This document shows, piece after piece, positions 15,595 through 43,730 of a stretch of 64,000 nucleotides of DNA. The first letter of the stretch is position 1. Each line of letters starts with the position of its first letter. Both the position numbers and the translations under genes were made by a program. This stretch comes from Paenibacillus sp. G2S3 (GTDB lineage: Bacteria > Bacillota > Bacilli > Paenibacillales > Paenibacillaceae): contig NZ_CP126095.1 of assembly GCF_030123105.1 (NCBI RefSeq), positions 4,650,001 through 4,714,000 of the forward strand. Direction: 5' to 3'. The notes under the pieces are model-generated. The model did not search any database and had not been told where the DNA came from. It was given only the letters and a program-made list of their open reading frames with translations.

Positions 15595-15858
15595 TCAAAA
15601 ACGATGATGGAACAAAGATTCTGGAAGTCTTCAGAGAGCCGGTGGTTGGTGCAAACCGGTGACGAACAGATGTCTTTAGCGCTCCTGAGATATTGTATCG
15701 AACCTTAAAGTAGGTGCAATCGGATCAACTCCGTTACCAGTGTGGCCTTTGCAGGCCAATGAGGCTGCTTCTTCCAAGTTGCAGTGAATTAGGGTGGTAC
15801 CACGAAGATAACTCTCGTCCCTTACTACGGCAGTAGTATGGGGGTCGGGAGTTTTTTT
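15595..15858 (+). promoter_or_regulatory. T-box leader upstream of serA, probably tRNA-Ser responsive
   Basis: The hallmark T-box sequence AGGGTGGTACCACG is at 15791-15804. Upstream are the stem I elements: the AGAGAGCC motif near 15635 and a GGTGG...AACCGGTGA region. The candidate specifier codon is TCC (Ser) at 15683-15685 in GCGCTCCTGAGA. A terminator (CTCTCGTCCC with GGGTCGGGAG, then seven T) spans 15811-15858. Known T-box behaviour is that uncharged tRNA stabilises the antiterminator, so serA would be switched on by serine starvation. The serine assignment is inferred from both the codon and the downstream gene. Confidence 0.9.
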
Positions 15859-16071: not shown

Positions 16072-17664
16072 ATGTTTAAAGTATTAGTATCGGATCCAAT
16101 CAGTGATTTGGGCATTCAGCAATTGATGGACGCAGAAGATGTAGTTGTAGACAAAAAAACAGGCCTCAGCGAAGACGAACTCATTGCAATTATCGGTGAA
16201 TACGATGGCCTACTTGTCCGCAGTCAAACTACCGTAACAGACAAAATCATAGAAGCAGGAAAAAATCTAAAAGTAATTGGCCGTGCTGGTGTTGGTGTGG
16301 ATAATATCAAACTGGATGCTGCAACAAAGCGTGGTATTGTTGTAATTAATGCTCCAGATGGAAATACAATTACGACTTGTGAGCATGCTTTCGCAATGAT
16401 GATGGCTCTTGCCCGTCACATTCCACAAGCTTATGCAAAAACAATTGGTGGAACCTGGGATAGAAAAACCTTCGTAGGCGTAGAGCTTCGTGGTAAAACT
16501 TTAGGTGTACTTGGAATGGGCAGAATCGGTAGCGAAGTGGCTAAACGCGCTAAAGCTTTCGGTATGGAAATTCTTGCTTTTGATCCTTTCCTAACAGCTG
16601 AACGTGCTGAAAAGATGGAAGTTAAATTGGCTTCCGTAGACGATGTTGTTCGCGGAGCTGACTTCATTACTGTGCACACTCCACTTACTCCGGAAACACG
16701 CCATATGATTTCTCGCCCACAATTCGAAGTGATGAAAAAGGGAATGCGTATCATCAACTGTGCTCGTGGTGGTGTAATTGATGAAATGGCGTTAGTAGAA
16801 GCTATCGATAGCGGTATTGTTGCTGGCGCTGCGTTCGACGTATTCGAGAAAGAGCCGCCACAAGCAGATCACCCCTTCTTGTCGCATCCAAAAATCATCG
16901 TGACTCCTCACTTGGGCGCTTCTACCATTGAAGCTCAGGAGAATGTAGCGATCGATGTATCGGAACAAGTACTGCATATTCTACGTAATGAACCGTTCAT
17001 TAACGCGGTCAACATTCCTCCAGTAGCACCAAGTGTAATGAATAAGCTTCAACCTTACTTCACGCTTGGGGAGAAACTGGGCAGCTTTGTTACCCAAATT
17101 GCAGCTGCCGCTATCCGTGAGATTCATGTTGAATACGCTGGGGATCTTTCGGATGTAGATACCCAACCGTTAACCCGCTATATTGTAAAAGGTGTGCTCT
17201 CCCGCCACTTTGCAGAGGACGTTAATATCGTAAACTCCATGCATTTGGCGAAAACACGCGACGTAAACGTAGTAATAACTAAAGCTTCTAAAACTAAAGG
17301 CTTTACCAATCTGATTACTGTCACTCTAAAAGCTGATCATGACCAAGAGTATCTTGTTGCCGGCACCCTGCTGCAAGGCTATGGAGAACGGATTGTTCAA
17401 GTGAATAAGTTCCCAGTTGATATTGCTCCTGAAGGCCATCAAATCTTTGTATCCCATAACGATAAAGTAGGGATTATAGGACTCGTGGGTACATTGCTTG
17501 GGGAGAACGATGTTAATATCGCCTCCATGCAAGTGGGACGTAAAATTGTTGGGGGCGCTGCAATCATGTTGCTGACCGTTGACAAAGCTGTTCCAAAACA
17601 TGTCCTTGTGAAGCTTGCTGGTTTACCAGAAATTAACACTGCCGAAGAAATCATCCTTCTTTAA
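16072..17664 (+). CDS. serA: D-3-phosphoglycerate dehydrogenase
   Basis: SerA oxidises 3-phosphoglycerate to 3-phosphohydroxypyruvate, the committed step of serine synthesis. The 530-residue, long-type protein has the NAD-binding motif GMGRIG (about residue 147), the catalytic Arg in INCARGG, the Glu in FDVFEKEPP and the HLGAST histidine. It continues through an allosteric-substrate-binding domain to a C-terminal ACT domain (GIIGLVGTLLGENDVNIASMQVGR) that usually senses serine. AAGGGGGA precedes the ATG. Expression is under the T-box upstream. Confidence 0.97.
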   Translation: MFKVLVSDPISDLGIQQLMDAEDVVVDKKTGLSEDELIAIIGEYDGLLVRSQTTVTDKIIEAGKNLKVIGRAGVGVDNIKLDAATKRGIVVINAPDGNTITTCEHAFAMMMALARHIPQAYAKTIGGTWDRKTFVGVELRGKTLGVLGMGRIGSEVAKRAKAFGMEILAFDPFLTAERAEKMEVKLASVDDVVRGADFITVHTPLTPETRHMISRPQFEVMKKGMRIINCARGGVIDEMALVEAIDSGIVAGAAFDVFEKEPPQADHPFLSHPKIIVTPHLGASTIEAQENVAIDVSEQVLHILRNEPFINAVNIPPVAPSVMNKLQPYFTLGEKLGSFVTQIAAAAIREIHVEYAGDLSDVDTQPLTRYIVKGVLSRHFAEDVNIVNSMHLAKTRDVNVVITKASKTKGFTNLITVTLKADHDQEYLVAGTLLQGYGERIVQVNKFPVDIAPEGHQIFVSHNDKVGIIGLVGTLLGENDVNIASMQVGRKIVGGAAIMLLTVDKAVPKHVLVKLAGLPEINTAEEIILL

Positions 17665-18743: not shown

Positions 18744-19700
18744 ATGAGAGCCGACCGTTTGTTATCTATATTGCTTCTGTTGCAAAACCGTGGAAAAATG
18801 ACTTCTCGCGAACTGGCCGAAACACTCGAAGTGTCAGAACGAACTGTGTTTAGAGATATGGAAGCATTAAGTGCTTCAGGGATACCCATTTTAGCTGAAC
18901 GCGGGCGTGAAGGTGGCTGGATGCTTACAGAAGGGTACCGTACCTCCCTAACGGGCATGAAGCCACAAGAGATTGGTTCGCTGCTTCTGTCCGCTGACTC
19001 CTCAATAATGAAGGATCTGGGAATACAGGATGACTTCTCTTCAGCTGTTCTCAAACTGGAGGCGGCTTCCTCACATCGAACTAGCAACCCAGCAAATTAC
19101 CTTAGCGAGCGCATTCATATTGACGGTGCCAGTTGGCATCCTTCCGATGAGACATATCCATTCCTTTCTGTCCTGCAGGGAGCTCTTTGGGATGACCGCA
19201 AAGTAAAAATCACTTATCTTAGGAACGACGAGACTAAGGTCCGTATGATTGAACCTCTTGGATTAGTTGCAAAACGAGGAGTATGGTATGTTGTGGCCAA
19301 AAGCGAGAATGAGCTACGGACCTTTCGTGTGTCCAGATTAGTTAACGTTGAGGAAACCCATGAATGGTTCAACAGGCCTAACAATTTTGATTTAAAGCGT
19401 TACTGGGAAGAGTCCACCACGGCCTTTAAAGCAGCGCTGCCAAAGTACCCGGCAAAACTAAGGGTTAGAGCTTCTGTGTTAAAAGAATTGCAGCGGGAAA
19501 GATTTGTCACTCTCCATTTGCTAGAACCATCTAGAGATGCAGAGTGGGTGAACGTAGATGCTGAATTTAATACGATCGAATCGGCCTGCCGAATCACCCT
19601 ATCCTTTAGTCCCTCAGTTATTGTTCTTGCACCACAAGAACTTTTAGAGATGGTAAGGTCTGCTATCGCAACAATTCACGCTATATATGAGGATTTTTGA
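18744..19700 (+). CDS. Helix-turn-helix transcriptional regulator with WYL domain (YafY/DeoR-like)
   Basis: The N-terminal winged HTH ([20 protein letters not shown], then [18 protein letters not shown]) is the HTH_11/DeoR type, followed by a central WYL ligand-sensing domain (residues about 140-220, with [11 protein letters not shown] and FRVSRL) and a C-terminal extension, 318 residues in all. Such proteins are usually repressors of a divergent neighbour, responding to an unknown ligand or single-stranded nucleic acid. The start ATG 18744 follows GAGGAG at a long spacing (about 13). It ends four bases after the first possible codon of the next frame but the chemoreceptor start is well downstream. 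Confidence 0.85.
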
Positions 19701-19822
19701 CAATAATTCTAAAGAACTACTATTTAATGATGATTTATGTCAGTTCTTACTATAGACCAATCACCTTTAAATCCCATATAATAACACCAATACATAATAT
19801 TAATAAGGAGGACATTATACCA

Positions 19823-21073
19823 ATGAACTGGATGCATAAACTTCCGTTAAAACAAAGAATTGTTGCCGGATGTTACCTCGTTGCCGCATTATTTGCTATT
19901 CCTGTTTTAGTTACTTTTATGATCTTAGGCAACATTATTTTGGGTATTGTTCTAGTAGTTGTTCTAGCTGCCTTAACTTTTCCCGTTGCCCGCTTTATCG
20001 AGAGAACGCTTACATCTTCTTTTGATGACATCGCGAATGTGTCTCATAGTATTTCAAAAGGGGATTTTACTAGTAGGGCCGATGAGAACGGGTCTATGGG
20101 GGATGTAAGTCGTTCCTTTAATACTATGATTGACAAGCTCAAGAAGATTCTGACAGAAGCTTCGCAAATTACTCGCCAAGTCATGGATGCAAGCCGCGGA
20201 ATCGAAGATAAGAATCAGAATTTGAAAATTGTCATGGCACAGGTAGCCTCTTCATCCAACGAGCTAGCTCTGGGTGCAAATGAAATATCTACAGATATCG
20301 CTGAAATGACAGAATCTATTAAAGATATTGAGAATAAGGTATCCAATTATACGAACTCAACGAAAGAAATGAACAGACGTTCAATACATACATTAGAACT
20401 AGTTGAACAAGGACGACAATCCGTTGATACTCAAGCTGAAGGCATGCGTAAAAATATTCAGGCTACTCAAAAAGTAGCGGATACTATCGAAGCCCTTTCT
20501 CATAACGCTCGAGGAATTACGATGATCACCAAAACCATCACAGAGATCGCAGAGCAGACCAACCTCTTATCGCTGAATGCTTCCATCGAAGCAGCACGTG
20601 CCGGAGAACATGGTCGAGGATTTGCTGTAGTCGCACAGGAGGTTCGTAAGCTTGCTGAGGAATCAACGGCTTCAACGAAGGAAGTCTTCGGTTTAGTTCG
20701 GAGCATTGAAACTGATATTAAACAAGCGATTGACAATATCGCTATCAACGAAGAAGTCGTACAGGTACAGAATGAGATGATCACTCAATCTGCTCATATC
20801 TTTGCTCAAATTGTGCAAAGTGTGCAATATATTACTGAACAGATTTCTTCCTTCTCTTCTGAAAGTGATCTGATGTTAGAAAGTGCCTTGAAAATTTCAA
20901 GTGCAATAGAGAATATCTCTGCGATCACGCAGCAAACCGCTGCCGGCACCGAAGAAGTATCGGCCGCTATGAATGAACAAATTAATGCCCTGCAGTCCGT
21001 CGCAGAAGAAACTGAGAAAATGACTCAGGCTGTATTCAATCTACAGAAAACGATCCACATTTTCAAATTTTAA
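19823..21073 (+). CDS. Short methyl-accepting chemotaxis protein
   Basis: The 416-residue receptor has two adjacent membrane helices (about residues 15-60) with almost no extracellular loop, a HAMP-like segment (residues 60-115) and a cytoplasmic signalling domain with the hairpin-tip sequence [20 protein letters not shown] and [18 protein letters not shown]. Because it has no periplasmic sensor, it probably senses an intracellular or membrane signal. ATG 19823 is chosen for AGGAGG 11 bases upstream; the frame open to 19697 lacks this. A strong terminator follows, so it is monocistronic. It is the immediate upstream neighbour of the c-di-GMP-controlled cluster. Confidence 0.93.
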
Positions 21074-21102
21074 GTAAATAACAAATCGTATAAACAAATC
21101 CA

Positions 21103-21141
21103 AAAACTGCCCCTAAGTTTTTTCTTAGGAGCAGTTTTTTT
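21103..21141 (+). terminator. Rho-independent terminator after the chemoreceptor gene
   Basis: AAACTGC-CCCTAAG pairs with CTTAGG-A-GCAGTTT, then a T run. It separates the receptor from the riboswitch promoter. Confidence 0.9.
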
Positions 21142-21206: not shown

Positions 21207-21235
21207 TTGACAAAGTATCTCTAGGAATATATTGT
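21207..21235 (+). promoter_or_regulatory. Sigma-A-type promoter for the c-di-GMP riboswitch transcript
   Basis: TTGACA (21207-21212), 17-base spacer, TATTGT (21230-21235), about 40 bases ahead of the aptamer. Confidence 0.7.
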
Positions 21236-21271
21236 AAAGGAAAATTCTTCTTATAAATTTTAAAATTAATA

Positions 21272-21438
21272 TTGGCAAAATCTTCGAAAGAGGATGACGC
21301 AAAACCATGGATCTACAGCCTCATTTTAATCTGAGGCCATGACAGCCAGGTTGCTGAAAACCAAGACGACTGGACTATTGTTCAGTCTCTATGGCGATTT
21401 ATGCTTCCAACCTGTGCCCTATTTCAGAGCACAGGTTT
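21272..21438 (+). promoter_or_regulatory. Cyclic di-GMP-I (GEMM-I) riboswitch with terminator
   Basis: The aptamer carries the GEMM-I landmarks in order: GGCAAAA, a hairpin closed by a GAAA tetraloop (CTTCGAAAGAG), TGACGCAAAACC, CTACAGCC, a variable hairpin and GACAGCCAGGTTGCTGAA. Downstream, AACCTGTGC (21409-21417) pairs with GCACAGGTT (21429-21437) to form a terminator-like hairpin. CAGGTTG in the aptamer (21347-21353) can pair instead with CAACCTG (21408-21414), the 5' arm of that hairpin. This suggests a transcriptional OFF switch in which c-di-GMP lowers expression of the ThDP enzyme gene. The T tract is short, so the switch direction is inferred. Confidence 0.88.
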
Positions 21439-21486
21439 TCTAATGTTTAATTTCAAAATAACAATCAACTTGTGAGGTGTATTTTT

Positions 21487-23121
21487 TTGAAGACAGTCGC
21501 AGATTACATGTCGGAAGCACTACGGAACCTAGGTGTTACCCATTCCTTTGGTATTATTGGCAAATCCATTTGTCCTATCGTTCTTAAAATGGTAGATTAC
21601 GGTATTGAATTTATTCCTGGGAGACATGAGTCCAGTTCCGGCTTCGAAGCAGCTGGGTATGCGCTGAAAACTGGAAAACTAGGTGTAGCATTTGGTACTT
21701 CAGGTCCTGGTGGAACAAACCTATTAACTGCAGCAGCACATGCTAAGGCTAACAACCTACCTGTCCTATTTATTACTGGCCATCAATCTATCAAAGAGCT
21801 TGGTATTCCCCAATGTCAGGACTCTACCTCTTTTCTAGCTGATTTAGCTGATATGTTTAGACCTGCCACCTTATATAGCAAGCTTATTGAACGTGGAGAT
21901 CACTTTAGCACAATCTTTAATCATGCCATATCCATTGCTTTGAGCGGTAATCGTGGTCCAGTTCACCTTTGTATTCCCTTTGATGTGCAAACGGAATTGC
22001 TAGAGGAATGTAATATTGTAATCCCTGAACGCGAATCACTTGTTAGCCACGCTAATATCGACCGTGTACTTGATGCTATAAATAACTCAAAGAATCCAAT
22101 CATTATCGCTGGTAAAGGCGTTAACCGTTCAGGAGCACATAGTGAGCTAATTCAATTAGCGGAAACATTTAATATTCCTGTAGTTACATCTCCAGGTGGT
22201 AAAGGGGCTATAACTTGGGATCATCCACTCTATCACGGTCCAATTGGAGTAGGCGGTTGTTCCCATGGGGATGACTTGCTGAATCAAAGTGATCTATTTA
22301 TCGTTCTCGGCTCACGTTTAAGTGATATGACTATTTGTAATCTTAAAAGGGAAAATCATCCTGCAACATTAATTCAGTTTGATAGCGATCCGACTTTTGT
22401 CGGAAAAATATTGTTCTCTAAAACGATTCCTGTGACTGGAGATCTACGCGACAATCTAGTTTGCTATCTTAATAACATTGACACGAACAACATCACAAAA
22501 CGCGAAGCACCAACAAATCCCGGTTATACCGAAGAGCTTCCGATTTTACCAAACCTTTCACTTGCATCGGTCTTGAGTACGATGAGTGATTTGATTCCCT
22601 ATAACAGCACAGTCTTTGTTGATGATGGTAGCCACGGTTTCCATGCTGCCAAATGGTACAAGGTTAAGAAACCTGGCAGTTTTGTTTTCGATGCTTACTT
22701 TGCTTGTATGGGTAATTCCATCGGGATGGCGATTGGTGCAAAGGTTGCTGCTCCAGAAGAAACGATCTTCTGTATTACAGGAGACGGCTGCTTTATGATG
22801 CTAGGGGCAGAGATTAACGCTGCTGTCTGCAAGAATATTCCTGTCATATTCATTGTTGTTAATAATAAACAGCTAGATATGGCTCTAAAAGGTATGGAAA
22901 AAACTACAGGACGTATTGACGGAACGATCTACGAAGTCCCTATGGACGCTGCGAAATTCGCAGAATCACTAGGTGCTACGGGTTACAAATGTGAGACAGC
23001 GGAGGAGTTCGAAACAGCCATCAAGGACGCTGTTGCAATCAACCGTGTTGCCGTCATTGAACTGTTAACAGACCGTGATGAGGTCCCTCCGACTGCTCAC
23101 CGTACTTTAAACCTAAATTAG
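21487..23121 (+). CDS. ThDP-dependent enzyme, acetolactate-synthase-like
   Basis: The 544-residue protein has the three domains of the ThDP decarboxylase/carboligase family. The catalytic Glu that activates the cofactor is E48 (GRHESSSGF), the TSGPGGTNL loop follows, and the ThDP/Mg motif GDGCFMMLGAEIN...VVNN is at about residues 430-460. It resembles acetolactate synthase and sulfopyruvate decarboxylase but lacks ilv neighbours, so a biosynthetic acyloin-forming or decarboxylating role is likely. The TTG at 21487 is chosen because GTGAGGTG lies eight bases upstream. It is the first gene behind the c-di-GMP riboswitch and is followed after 16 bases by the CMD-like gene. Confidence 0.88.
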   Translation: MKTVADYMSEALRNLGVTHSFGIIGKSICPIVLKMVDYGIEFIPGRHESSSGFEAAGYALKTGKLGVAFGTSGPGGTNLLTAAAHAKANNLPVLFITGHQSIKELGIPQCQDSTSFLADLADMFRPATLYSKLIERGDHFSTIFNHAISIALSGNRGPVHLCIPFDVQTELLEECNIVIPERESLVSHANIDRVLDAINNSKNPIIIAGKGVNRSGAHSELIQLAETFNIPVVTSPGGKGAITWDHPLYHGPIGVGGCSHGDDLLNQSDLFIVLGSRLSDMTICNLKRENHPATLIQFDSDPTFVGKILFSKTIPVTGDLRDNLVCYLNNIDTNNITKREAPTNPGYTEELPILPNLSLASVLSTMSDLIPYNSTVFVDDGSHGFHAAKWYKVKKPGSFVFDAYFACMGNSIGMAIGAKVAAPEETIFCITGDGCFMMLGAEINAAVCKNIPVIFIVVNNKQLDMALKGMEKTTGRIDGTIYEVPMDAAKFAESLGATGYKCETAEEFETAIKDAVAINRVAVIELLTDRDEVPPTAHRTLNLN

Positions 23122-23137
23122 GAGGTCACTATTCACT

Positions 23138-23506
23138 ATGAAAGAAAATGTAAACAGTGGTCTTAACCACTTCACGAATCTCTCAGGAGATTACGGCGCT
23201 AAAGCACTGGCTCCGATTAAAGAACATTTCCCTGACTTGGCTGAATTTATTATGGGGAATGCCTACGGCGATATTTTTCAACGCAACACAATCGAAGCTG
23301 ACTGGAAGGAAATCGCAGTTATCTCTGCTCTGATTGCGATGGGTCAGTTTGATCAATTGGGTGTTCATTATGTTATGGCTCTTCGTGTGGGAGTTACTGT
23401 AGAACAACTCAAAGGTATTCTATTACACTTAGTACCCGCTATAGGGGCACCTAGAATCATCACGGCTTTTAATATTCTTCTTGAAACGATAGAAGAAATA
23501 AAGTAA
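23138..23506 (+). CDS. Carboxymuconolactone decarboxylase-like protein
   Basis: The 122-residue, all-helical protein matches the CMD/AhpD fold (DWKEIAVISALIAMGQFDQLGVHYVMALRVGVTVEQLKGILLH in pattern). It contains no cysteine at all, so it cannot be an AhpD-type CxxC peroxidase and is closer to true gamma-carboxymuconolactone decarboxylases or to uncharacterised members. AGGAGG precedes the ATG. It is 16 bases behind the ThDP enzyme gene and is almost certainly co-transcribed with it. The reaction is unknown; in context it could act on the product of the ThDP enzyme. Confidence 0.8.
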   Translation: MKENVNSGLNHFTNLSGDYGAKALAPIKEHFPDLAEFIMGNAYGDIFQRNTIEADWKEIAVISALIAMGQFDQLGVHYVMALRVGVTVEQLKGILLHLVPAIGAPRIITAFNILLETIEEIK

Positions 23507-23547
23507 TTAATAATCCGACATAAAGTTACACATTTCGACTTTTTTTA

Positions 23548-23576
23548 TTGGGAATTAAATATACTATGCCTATAAT
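23548..23576 (+). promoter_or_regulatory. Candidate internal promoter before the STAS-like gene
   Basis: TTGGGA (23548-23553), 17-base spacer, perfect TATAAT (23571-23576). It lies in the 209-base gap after the CMD gene and could give the last two genes their own expression. The rest of the gap shows no clear terminator. Confidence 0.55.
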
Positions 23577-23715
23577 AGAGTTAAAATATTCCAATATTAA
23601 TACTGTCTATTATGGTTACATGTCGTAAAAAAACAGTTTATATGGATATTCACCCGGCTGTTAATTACAGTCAAACTATTATTAGCAAAATCATAATAAT
23701 GGGAGAGATGTTAAC

Positions 23716-24066
23716 GTGGGACAATTTATTTTGAAGACAGACACCGCTAAAAAAGTGATCAATATCGAGCTGGAAGGAACATTTTCTGAAGAAGATGGGA
23801 TGAAATCTATCCAAGCTTATCAACAAACTATTAATCCTATCCATCCAGCAGACTATGAATTGCAAATCGACTGCAGAAAGCTAAATGTAACTGCACCTGA
23901 TGTTGTACCTCTTTTGGAAGGTTGCTTCGTAATGTTTAAGAATGATGGATTTGTAAAAGTAAATCTAACCCTTGAGAATAACCCAATTCTTAAAATGCAG
24001 CTTGCTCGTCTGGGTCGTAAAGCAGGACTAGATAACATCGAGATCATTTCTACCGTTACCGTTTAG
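23716..24066 (+). CDS. STAS/SpoIIAA-like protein of unknown role
   Basis: The 116-residue protein begins at GTG 23716 behind GGGAGAG. An alternation of strands and helices (KKVINIELEGTFSEEDG..., then YELQIDCRKLNVTAPDVVPLLEGC) suggests the SpoIIAA/STAS-like or Sec14-like fold found in small regulatory proteins. The conserved phosphorylatable Ser of anti-anti-sigma factors is not evident. It sits between the CMD-like and KAS III-like genes, so it may be a partner or regulator for the pathway. This is an inference from fold impression and position only. Confidence 0.65.
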   Translation: MGQFILKTDTAKKVINIELEGTFSEEDGMKSIQAYQQTINPIHPADYELQIDCRKLNVTAPDVVPLLEGCFVMFKNDGFVKVNLTLENNPILKMQLARLGRKAGLDNIEIISTVTV

Positions 24067-24115
24067 TTCTTCATTTAATTTCAAAAAAACTATAGAGTCT
24101 TTCAGGAGGATTCAT

Positions 24116-25108
24116 ATGACCGGGATTCGTATTCAAGACATTGATATCTATCATCCTAGTAATAAAGTTGGTAACGACTTTTTCATTAAGCATTTTGACG
24201 AAAAGGGTATTGATATCAGAGGTCTACTGACCACTTTAGGTCGTGATACGCGCTATAGCATTAAGAATGAGGAAGAAAATTCCCTAACGATGGCTTTCGA
24301 GGCTGCCAGTAATGTGTTGGATAAAAATGGTCTCACTGGCGCTGATATCGATCTTATTGCCTATGCAAGTCAAACTCCTGAATATATCTTTCCTACTAAC
24401 TCTTTAATGATTCACCGTTTAATCAACGGCGCATCCCATACGATTTGCATTGATAGCAATGCTAACTGTGCGGGTATGACTGCTTCCGTTGAACAGGTGA
24501 GCCGCCAAATGCAAGCCAACCCTAGAATTAAACGTGCTTTGGTCATCGGGTCCGATTATGTAGCACCTCATGCAGACAAGAATGATCCTGTCTATTATGC
24601 TAACTTCGGTGATGCAGCTGCGGCAATCCTTCTTGAGCGCGATGATAATGCGGTAGGCTTCATTGACTCTATCTATCAAACAGACACATGTGTTTACGGC
24701 AACTCCAAGTTCCCGGCTGAAGGTTTGGCTAATCTGGGTAGAAAAGGCGTCGCGGCTGGAGAATTCAATGTGAAGTTCATTCCATTTGATGATTCCATTT
24801 GCGTAGATGCTGCTTCTGAATCGATTCGCACCCTTCTATCGGATAACAACATAGCGCCTGAATCTATTAAAGCAGCTTGTTTCTCACAGCTTTCACTGCC
24901 TAATATCGTTGATGTTTGTGATAAAGTGGGGATTGATCGCGATGTAGCGGTGTACATAGGGGATGAATTCGGATACACCTCAACTAGTAGCCCGTTCATT
25001 GCTCTACACAAAGCTATTACAACAGGAAAGATCGAACGTGGAGATAAAGTTCTGTTCTGGACAGTGGGCGCTGGATGGCAAAACGTAGCATTTGTTATTG
25101 AATATTAA
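24116..25108 (+). CDS. Divergent KAS III-fold enzyme (3-oxoacyl-ACP synthase III-like)
   Basis: The 330-residue protein is clearly of the FabH/thiolase fold: the active Cys is C118 in DSNANCAGM, and FGDAAAAILLE and the C-terminal FWTVGAGWQNVAFVIEY follow. Two catalytic residues are missing: the His of the usual HQAN motif aligns with Ser257 (CFSQLS), and the Asn of GNTS aligns with Tyr287 (FGYTST). Without them normal decarboxylative condensation is unlikely, so acyl transfer or a non-decarboxylative reaction fits better. The start ATG 24116 has AGGAGG upstream. It is the last gene of the cluster, before a bidirectional terminator. Confidence 0.85.
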   Translation: MTGIRIQDIDIYHPSNKVGNDFFIKHFDEKGIDIRGLLTTLGRDTRYSIKNEEENSLTMAFEAASNVLDKNGLTGADIDLIAYASQTPEYIFPTNSLMIHRLINGASHTICIDSNANCAGMTASVEQVSRQMQANPRIKRALVIGSDYVAPHADKNDPVYYANFGDAAAAILLERDDNAVGFIDSIYQTDTCVYGNSKFPAEGLANLGRKGVAAGEFNVKFIPFDDSICVDAASESIRTLLSDNNIAPESIKAACFSQLSLPNIVDVCDKVGIDRDVAVYIGDEFGYTSTSSPFIALHKAITTGKIERGDKVLFWTVGAGWQNVAFVIEY

Positions 25109-25120
25109 GACCTTACAACA

Positions 25121-25166
25121 TAAAAAGCGGCAGGCCAAGGATTATCCTTAGCTTGCCGCTTTTTAT
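25121..25166. terminator. Bidirectional terminator
   Basis: AAAAAGCGGCAGGCCAAGG pairs with CCTTAGCTTGCCGCTTTTT around ATTAT, with A and T runs on both sides, between two converging genes. Confidence 0.9.
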
Positions 25167-43420: not shown

Positions 43421-43555
43421 ATGCGAGAGTTTATCGGCAGTCCAAATAAAAGTGTGCGTAAATAACCGTCCATTGACGGCAATTGTGAAATATCGCACAT
43501 AATAAATGAAAACACTGCAGTCCACCTGTCTATTACAGACAAGCGGTTAACCTCT

Positions 43556-43730
43556 CCTTCTTCCATCCAGACTATACTGTCGGTCCCGGAATTTCACCGG
43601 GTCCACCGTTCGCGTCAACAACGCGAGCCGGGTAGCGGACTAAGTGTGGTAGATAAACTTAATAAATAAGCACTCTACAACAACATCACCGCCGGTAGGG
43701 AATTACACCCTGCCCTGAAGGATTGATCCT
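43556..43730 (-). promoter_or_regulatory. FMN riboswitch (RFN element) upstream of the rib operon
   Basis: Read on the minus strand, the RFN landmarks appear in order: GGGCAGGGTG, TTCCCTACCGGCGGTGATG, a long variable arm, the CCGGCTCGCG region, GACCCGGTG-AAATTCCGGG and ACCGACAGTATAGTCTGGATGGAAG. FMN binding is known to stabilise the terminated form, so riboflavin synthesis is repressed when FMN is plentiful. The terminator is listed separately. Confidence 0.97.

Follow-up and report, generated by a model that had tools for sequence, protein, structure and literature searches.

A 64,000-nt stretch of the genome of Paenibacillus sp. G2S3, a soil bacterium (the window; contig NZ_CP126095.1, positions 4,650,001 to 4,714,000) carries a cyclic di-GMP (c-di-GMP) riboswitch of the GEMM-I class, followed on the same strand by genes for a thiamine diphosphate (ThDP)-dependent enzyme resembling acetolactate synthase, a carboxymuconolactone decarboxylase (CMD)-family protein, a predicted STAS-fold protein and a protein resembling ketoacyl-ACP synthase (KAS) III. 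Judging from the sequences, we see about an even chance that this locus is a biosynthetic cluster for a small acylated acyloin that is switched by c-di-GMP, which would silence at least the ThDP and CMD genes. Behind this reading stand the RNA, the genes, an altered KAS active site and a single clade of ThDP-linked KAS proteins with a member in Xenorhabdus bovienii.

One KAS clade accompanies different ThDP enzymes

All features described here lie on the forward strand of the window, which comes from a 6.70-Mb, single-contig genome. The ThDP gene was called at 21472-23121 from a GTG start, although 544-amino-acid (aa) homologues and an AGGTG box favour a TTG at 21487 as the likely true start; its product is 98% identical to proteins of Paenibacillus sp. 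FSL R5-0345 and P. odorifer. The CMD gene (23138-23506, 122 aa) begins 16 nt after the ThDP stop codon. After a gap of 209 nt come the STAS gene (23716-24066, 116 aa) and its partner, the KAS gene (24116-25108), behind which a terminator-like hairpin can be read from the sequence at 25122-25164.

Named genomes, scanned with an alignment of KAS proteins, yielded 219 relatives, of which the best 80 were kept and underlie our neighbourhood counts. The KAS gene adjoins a ThDP gene in 61 of these 80. Where KAS identity is at least 75% (class A, 44 loci), the order ThDP-CMD-STAS-KAS on one strand was found in all 44, so that the four genes, which a preliminary description of this DNA had taken to be a cluster, can hardly be called rarely adjacent. 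Class A splits in the KAS tree into the window's clade (18 loci) and the amylolyticus group (26 loci). In a further 16 loci, from Cohnella and Paenibacillus (class B), a different ThDP gene is followed by STAS and KAS, with no CMD match.

In a tree made by a quick method from 82 rows, each cut to its last 335 residues, the 60 ThDP-linked KAS proteins formed one clade (Shimodaira-Hasegawa-like approximate likelihood ratio test, SH-aLRT, 99) and the 20 orphan rows fell outside it. The X. bovienii protein, on a long branch, grouped with 14 class B rows (SH-aLRT 99) and is 49-56% identical to 14 class B KAS proteins. Two loci, L060 and L062, in which the KAS open reading frame (ORF) was missed, are not represented in the tree, in the list of neighbouring genes or in the residue count given below. 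The ThDP partners were compared using 8 class A rows, 10 class B rows and X. bovienii; identity between the three groups does not exceed 30.5%, no higher than that of class A to the genome's own IlvB-like protein (30.4%). Because one KAS clade sits with three ThDP groups of such low identity, the ThDP and KAS genes have probably come together on more than one occasion. A common origin of the three ThDP partners to the exclusion of other members of the superfamily was considered and found unsupported; in the tree of ThDP enzymes, which included 8 class A and 10 class B rows, long branches leave their placement unsure.

These comparisons bear on the possibility that the genes are neighbours by inherited synteny alone and have no joint function, which we hold to be very improbable. 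It is true that class A loci come from related species, that 44 of 44 are for this reason not 44 independent events, and that the KAS gene can be lost. Since relatedness inflates the within-class counts, the independent evidence is that one KAS clade is found beside different ThDP enzymes, and here three ThDP groups stand beside that clade in two phyla, two of them with GEMM-I.

A c-di-GMP riboswitch with a predicted OFF platform precedes the ThDP gene

A full-length covariance-model match bears out the GEMM-I aptamer that had been proposed upstream of the ThDP gene: RF01051 aligned at 21264-21358 over model positions 1-87 of 87 with 76.2 bits against a gathering score of 35 (E 3.5e-13), and a whole-genome search also recovered it. 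The candidate sigma-A promoter proposed for the riboswitch transcript, TTGACA-17-TATTGT (21207-21235), is present and its position fits the riboswitch, but such patterns occur at chance level, with 15 matches observed in the stretch and 15.8 expected. Past the aptamer come a hairpin (21368-21387), both read from the sequence and predicted by folding, and then the expression platform, a terminator stem-loop with a U-rich tail (21409-21437).

The 3' strand of the aptamer (21345-21352, with CAGGUU) is able to base-pair with the terminator 5' arm and is a candidate antiterminator; this complementarity, CAGGU(U), is kept in 19 of 19 cases, namely the window and the 18 loci of its clade. Window transcripts ending near or before the terminator 3' arm were predicted to fold with the aptamer-terminator pairing, and a longer transcript to fold the terminator. 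Pairing of the terminator arm inside the aptamer was found in all six class A leaders that were folded. The platform reads as an OFF switch, because ligand binding should hold the aptamer strand and so let the terminator form. We claim this direction for class A only; class B leaders cut before the terminator 3' arm folded without a consistent pattern.

For the search of relatives, the genome's seven GEMM-I copies served to build a covariance model that omits 4 of the 22 riboswitch base pairs. With it, GEMM-I was detected before the ThDP gene in all 18 loci of the window's clade. Of the 16 class B loci, 9 have it leading a chemoreceptor-ThDP-STAS-KAS run, and two of the other seven have no upstream sequence. 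A terminator-like hairpin follows the aptamer in 28 of 28 cases analysed, including 9 of 9 in class B, in a scan without a chance control.

Genes for motility, adhesion and the matrix are the best-known targets of c-di-GMP-I riboswitches. Apart from the window copy, GEMM-I occurs six times in this genome, ahead of a SinI-like ORF and of genes for secreted or adhesin-like proteins (named by eye), and the window copy is therefore an outlier in its genome: the riboswitch class is the same, but the target is an enzyme of small-molecule metabolism. One of the six (positions 1501-1585 of locus L001, genome 407225-410309) precedes a 51-aa SinI-like ORF whose opposite-strand neighbours we take, by eye, to be SinR-like and TasA-like; there c-di-GMP may feed straight into the biofilm switch. 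Two others (L003 and L005, C1:707877-708111) stand in tandem ahead of a secreted-protein gene.

The KAS III-like protein has a Cys-Ser-Tyr active site

The KAS III-like protein matched PF08545 and PF08541, and its predicted model has the FabH fold. It is not a FabH by score (TIGR00747, 107.2 against 292.1 bits), and the Cys-His-Asn triad is altered. In every one of the 79 rows compared (78 relatives plus the window), Cys118 is kept, Ser257 replaces the FabH His and Tyr287 the FabH Asn, whereas Cys, His and Asn are all retained in the genome's own two FabH-like paralogues. The catalytic alteration noticed in the preliminary description thus holds throughout these rows, and members of the family carry the name ketoacyl-ACP synthase in public sources. 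In FabH the His-Asn pair serves decarboxylative condensation. Because both residues are replaced and the Cys is kept, the natural reading of the sequence is acyl transfer without condensation.

Two KAS III acyltransferases, CerJ and Pau29, show the same logic. According to the available part of PMC4425429, the decarboxylation His is lost and an ester is formed, by a Cys-His-Asp or Ser-His-Asp site where the proteins described here have Cys-Ser-Tyr; XclB and XclC are named there as ester-forming condensation-like enzymes. CerJ matches the window KAS only weakly in sequence (E 2.1e-5).

Quite improbable, in our judgement, is a different outcome in which the ThDP product belongs to another compound class and the KAS protein forms a C-C bond, as in carbazole pathways. 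It is suggested by BbmA and CsmA, the nearest solved ThDP relatives by sequence (a literature search on BbmA chemistry gave nothing relevant among the papers listed), and by carquinostatin/neocarazostatin biosynthesis, where the KAS III-like CqsB1 works with the ThDP enzyme CqsB3 and forms a C-C bond (available part of PMC7466098). That system, likened to ours by description only, also has a carbazole synthase, CqsB2. The absence of His and Asn from all 79 rows argues against a C-C bond, given the role of these residues in FabH condensation.

Comparison with the X. bovienii locus

In X. bovienii (L077), a ThDP gene is followed first by a KAS-like gene whose product has Thr where the Cys would be and then by a KAS gene whose product is 47% identical to the window KAS; no STAS or CMD match was found in this locus. 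From its gene content and the naming of xcl genes we take it to be the xenocyloin cluster xcl, in which the ThDP enzyme would presumably be XclA and the KAS of the ThDP-linked clade is probably XclC. The link to xenocyloins suggested in the preliminary description stands in part. The window KAS belongs to the same clade as a KAS that lies beside a ThDP gene in X. bovienii, which places it in an XclC-like lineage, and the two share the same altered active site; but the ThDP enzymes are only 25% identical, and an XclA-type pairing was not recovered. Against a ScyA-related model the X. bovienii ThDP enzyme scored 466.6 bits, below the cut-off of 1000. The two loci also differ in content, X. bovienii having the extra KAS-like gene and the window adding CMD, STAS and the riboswitch.

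The ThDP and CMD-family proteins

PF02776, PF00205 and PF02775 all scored above cut-off in the ThDP protein, giving it the three domains of the superfamily, and acetolactate synthases rank first by score among the 25 NCBIfam families listed. In these two respects it is like IlvB/AlsS, yet it lies far below the cut-offs of all 25 (297.5 against 538.35 bits for TIGR00118 and 239.6 against 510 for NF006378, AlsS), and the genome keeps a separate IlvB-like gene elsewhere, the only other gene of acetolactate synthase type found there. Because the cut-offs are missed and the IlvB-like gene is present, branched-chain amino acid synthesis is an unlikely role for the window enzyme. It is acetolactate-synthase-like, as had been described, and probably not an enzyme of an amino-acid pathway. 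Two other loci (L107, 988-4226; L108, 746-3984) encode a ThDP enzyme with 49% identity to that of the window, and its gene overlaps one for a histidine kinase (HisKA, HATPase_c); CMD, STAS and KAS gave no match in 9 kb there.

The CMD-family protein scored 45.4 bits with PF02627 against a gathering score of 23, which, with the 16-nt spacing, confirms the proposed coupling of ThDP and CMD; with the PcaC equivalog TIGR02425 it scored 44.7 bits and did not reach the cut-off of 155.7. AhpD-type peroxidases have a CxxC motif. The window protein has no cysteine and none of the 44 sequences has more than one, and His77 is invariant in all 44. Since the cysteine pair is missing and His77 is invariant, the protein is not an AhpD-type CxxC peroxidase, and decarboxylation is a possible activity. 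A transposase-like ORF, so named by eye, separates ThDP from CMD in one genome (L109, 3835-5079) where all four genes are present.

The main rival, which we find doubtful but would take seriously, is that ThDP and CMD form an overflow acetoin route under c-di-GMP, made up of a catabolic acetolactate synthase and a CMD-type acetolactate decarboxylase, and that STAS-KAS is an independent neighbour. The best NCBIfam scores are those of acetolactate synthases, the genome search found just the one other gene of this type, IlvB-like, and no PF03306 acetolactate decarboxylase, and STAS-KAS has a candidate promoter of its own and can be lost. The acetolactate synthase cut-offs, however, are missed widely, and the 60 ThDP-linked KAS proteins form one clade despite their differing ThDP partners. 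Nor does PF03306 avoid genomes with the ThDP gene, being found in 11 of 48 with it and 3 of 33 without it in the survey described below; CMD as a stand-in for acetolactate decarboxylase by complementary distribution finds no support in these counts.

One transcription unit or two

The gap between CMD and STAS contains a TTCGAC box and a promoter-like TTGGGA-17-TATAAT (23534-23576). Of the 19 gaps in the window's clade, the window included, 12 have this joint pattern, as do all 26 in the amylolyticus group; in mononucleotide shuffles it appeared at 0.15%. Upstream of STAS it was absent from the 16 class B loci, from 19 class C loci (STAS-KAS pairs, described below) and from the one orphan pair of the genome itself.

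This and several other observations weigh against an acyloin-ester cluster under common c-di-GMP control. STAS-KAS in class A has its own conserved candidate promoter, so c-di-GMP may not reach the pair. In a survey of 81 genomes of the genus, with identity thresholds of at least 80% for ThDP and at least 78% for KAS, the ThDP gene was found in 48 and KAS in 39. In every genome with the KAS, the ThDP gene lies no more than 3 kb away on the same contig and strand, and nine of the 48 lack this KAS. Those nine all keep CMD, four keep STAS and one has a KAS remnant; GEMM-I is kept in seven and is also missing from two. By these distributions ThDP-CMD is the core and STAS-KAS the accessory part in the window's clade, and the case for c-di-GMP control over all four genes is the weaker for it.

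The riboswitch itself was found in none of the 26 amylolyticus loci, and in one of these, L023, the Rfam model also gave no match. The terminator arm pairs wholly with the aptamer 3' strand in only two of the six folded leaders (the window and L022); its pairing partners are spread in L017, L032 and L037 and lie near the 5' end in L010. Among the 80 relatives, 19 have STAS-KAS without a ThDP gene in the stretch examined (class C). GEMM-I adjoins none of these 19 pairs, one further match lying 9 kb from the L086 pair, and the X. bovienii locus has none. The window's own genome holds a second STAS-KAS pair (L088, 4300-5710; KAS at C1:5885726-5886703, 47% identical), with neither a riboswitch match nor a ThDP gene in its stretch. 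The window ThDP enzyme, moreover, is no nearer to that of X. bovienii (25% identical) than to E. coli IlvI (28%).

The earlier hint of two units has accordingly gained ground, from the conserved promoter of STAS-KAS and from the persistence of ThDP-CMD in the nine genomes without KAS. The single c-di-GMP-controlled run that was proposed alongside it is seen, by gene order alone and without CMD, in class B, but class A looks like two units.

The KAS remnant mentioned above (L099, 4107-4208), the trace of a recent loss, lies between CMD and glpK and spans 34 residues with 79% identity. Sites of the form TGTCGAA/TTCGACA, which resemble the Spo0A box, occur in the CMD-STAS gap of 12 of 19 members of the window's clade, where 0.4 would be expected; relatedness inflates this count. 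None of the 26 amylolyticus gaps has such a site, and the window gap (23507-23715) has TTCGACT only.

The STAS-fold protein and the upstream chemoreceptor

The STAS-like protein belongs to no Pfam or NCBIfam family: PF01740 touches 1 of 29 family members (E 0.22), and the profile gave nothing below E 0.19 against the sequences of solved structures. An AlphaFold2 model (predicted local distance difference test, pLDDT, 87) matched chains of the RsbV/RsbW complex, SpoIIAA and SiaC, so that the fold named in the preliminary description is supported by a predicted, SpoIIAA-like model, though the PF01740 score was not reached. SpoIIAA-type anti-anti-sigma STAS proteins carry a conserved phosphorylatable serine. 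Among the 29 members we found no Ser or Thr in invariant or near-invariant columns, the exact SpoIIAA position being compared by eye only.

Just upstream of the riboswitch lies a chemoreceptor gene (HAMP-MCPsignal, 19697-21073), a candidate member of the cluster only; a terminator-like hairpin at 21102-21139 separates it from the riboswitch transcript region. In the window's clade, 16 of 18 loci have an 83-97% identical copy of it before ThDP. Of the 16 class B loci, 13 have a chemoreceptor upstream, and two of the other three lie on contigs that begin close to the ThDP gene. In class B, moreover, a gene from a single family (~145 aa) stands immediately before ThDP in 10 of 14 listed loci. A GAF domain scored above the Pfam cut-off in three of three members tested; the window's genome gave no match to this protein in a search without a positive control. 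Orthology between the class B chemoreceptor and that of the window was rejected, the latter being only ninth of 23 matches in its genome. Downstream of KAS, two loci (L066 and L071) have arrays of related ORFs, 12 in all, of 140-192 aa; the one ORF tested had no Pfam family above cut-off.

STAS and KAS could instead be a signalling or acyl-thioester-sensing pair, with a regulatory KAS and with the chemoreceptor, GAF protein and riboswitch as part of the signalling. The STAS model resembles SpoIIAA and also SiaC, the activator of a diguanylate cyclase, STAS-KAS stands without ThDP in 19 of 80 relatives, and class B adds its chemoreceptor and GAF-family gene. We nevertheless consider this unlikely: none of the 79 rows lacks the acyl-accepting cysteine, and in X. 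bovienii the KAS relative follows ThDP and a second KAS gene, without STAS.

Ordinary RNA elements elsewhere in the window are a T-box leader (15595-15825), which precedes a serA-like gene (16072-17664, named by eye), and a flavin mononucleotide (FMN) riboswitch (43551-43726).

Proposed function and meaning

In the acyloin-ester pathway that we favour, the leader RNA would form the antiterminator at low c-di-GMP and ThDP-CMD would be transcribed, while at high c-di-GMP the bound aptamer would free the terminator and transcription would stop. The ThDP enzyme would join two 2-oxo acids, and the CMD-family protein may strip the carboxyl group from the resulting alpha-hydroxy-beta-keto acid to leave an acyloin. 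The KAS-like enzyme would load an acyl group on Cys118 and, having neither His nor Asn, would not perform the decarboxylative condensation of FabH; it would transfer this group to the hydroxyl of the acyloin, and an acyloin ester would result. The STAS-fold protein would be a dedicated partner or regulator of KAS. An acylated acyloin is our best guess because the CMD-family protein could be a decarboxylase and the KAS is kin to XclC.

No description of this cluster was found among the open-licence PMC papers listed by the searches, and the available parts of PMC4425429, PMC4578411, PMC7466098, PMC9520725, PMC6305712 and PMC12452182 do not mention it. The genome paper on Paenibacillus sp. PK1-4R cites a thesis whose title announces the first discovery of acyloin esters of natural origin; PK1-4R did not appear among the 120 rows listed of 687 ThDP matches, a listing that carries no information about its genome. 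If the product is an acyloin ester, the present locus would supply candidate genes for Paenibacillus, the genus in which, going by that title, natural acyloin esters are reported.

This analysis defines an altered KAS III family with a Cys-Ser-Tyr site. Beside one clade of this family, two ThDP lineages carry a c-di-GMP riboswitch, a class best known for matrix, adhesion and motility genes. Given an acyloin-ester product, whether c-di-GMP controls the release of a small molecule and whether STAS-KAS is an acyltransferase pair would become directly testable questions. A wider proposal, which we think improbable as a whole, is that a c-di-GMP-silenced module of Paenibacillaceae makes a diffusible or volatile acyloin ester in motile cells, that the linked chemoreceptor and, in class B, the GAF protein sense the product or its precursors, and that the STAS-fold protein is a dedicated partner to a new family of KAS III acyltransferases. 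Were it true, a self-made chemical cue would be tied to the decision to swim or settle; the acyloin-ester reading by itself would tie that choice to the release of a small molecule.

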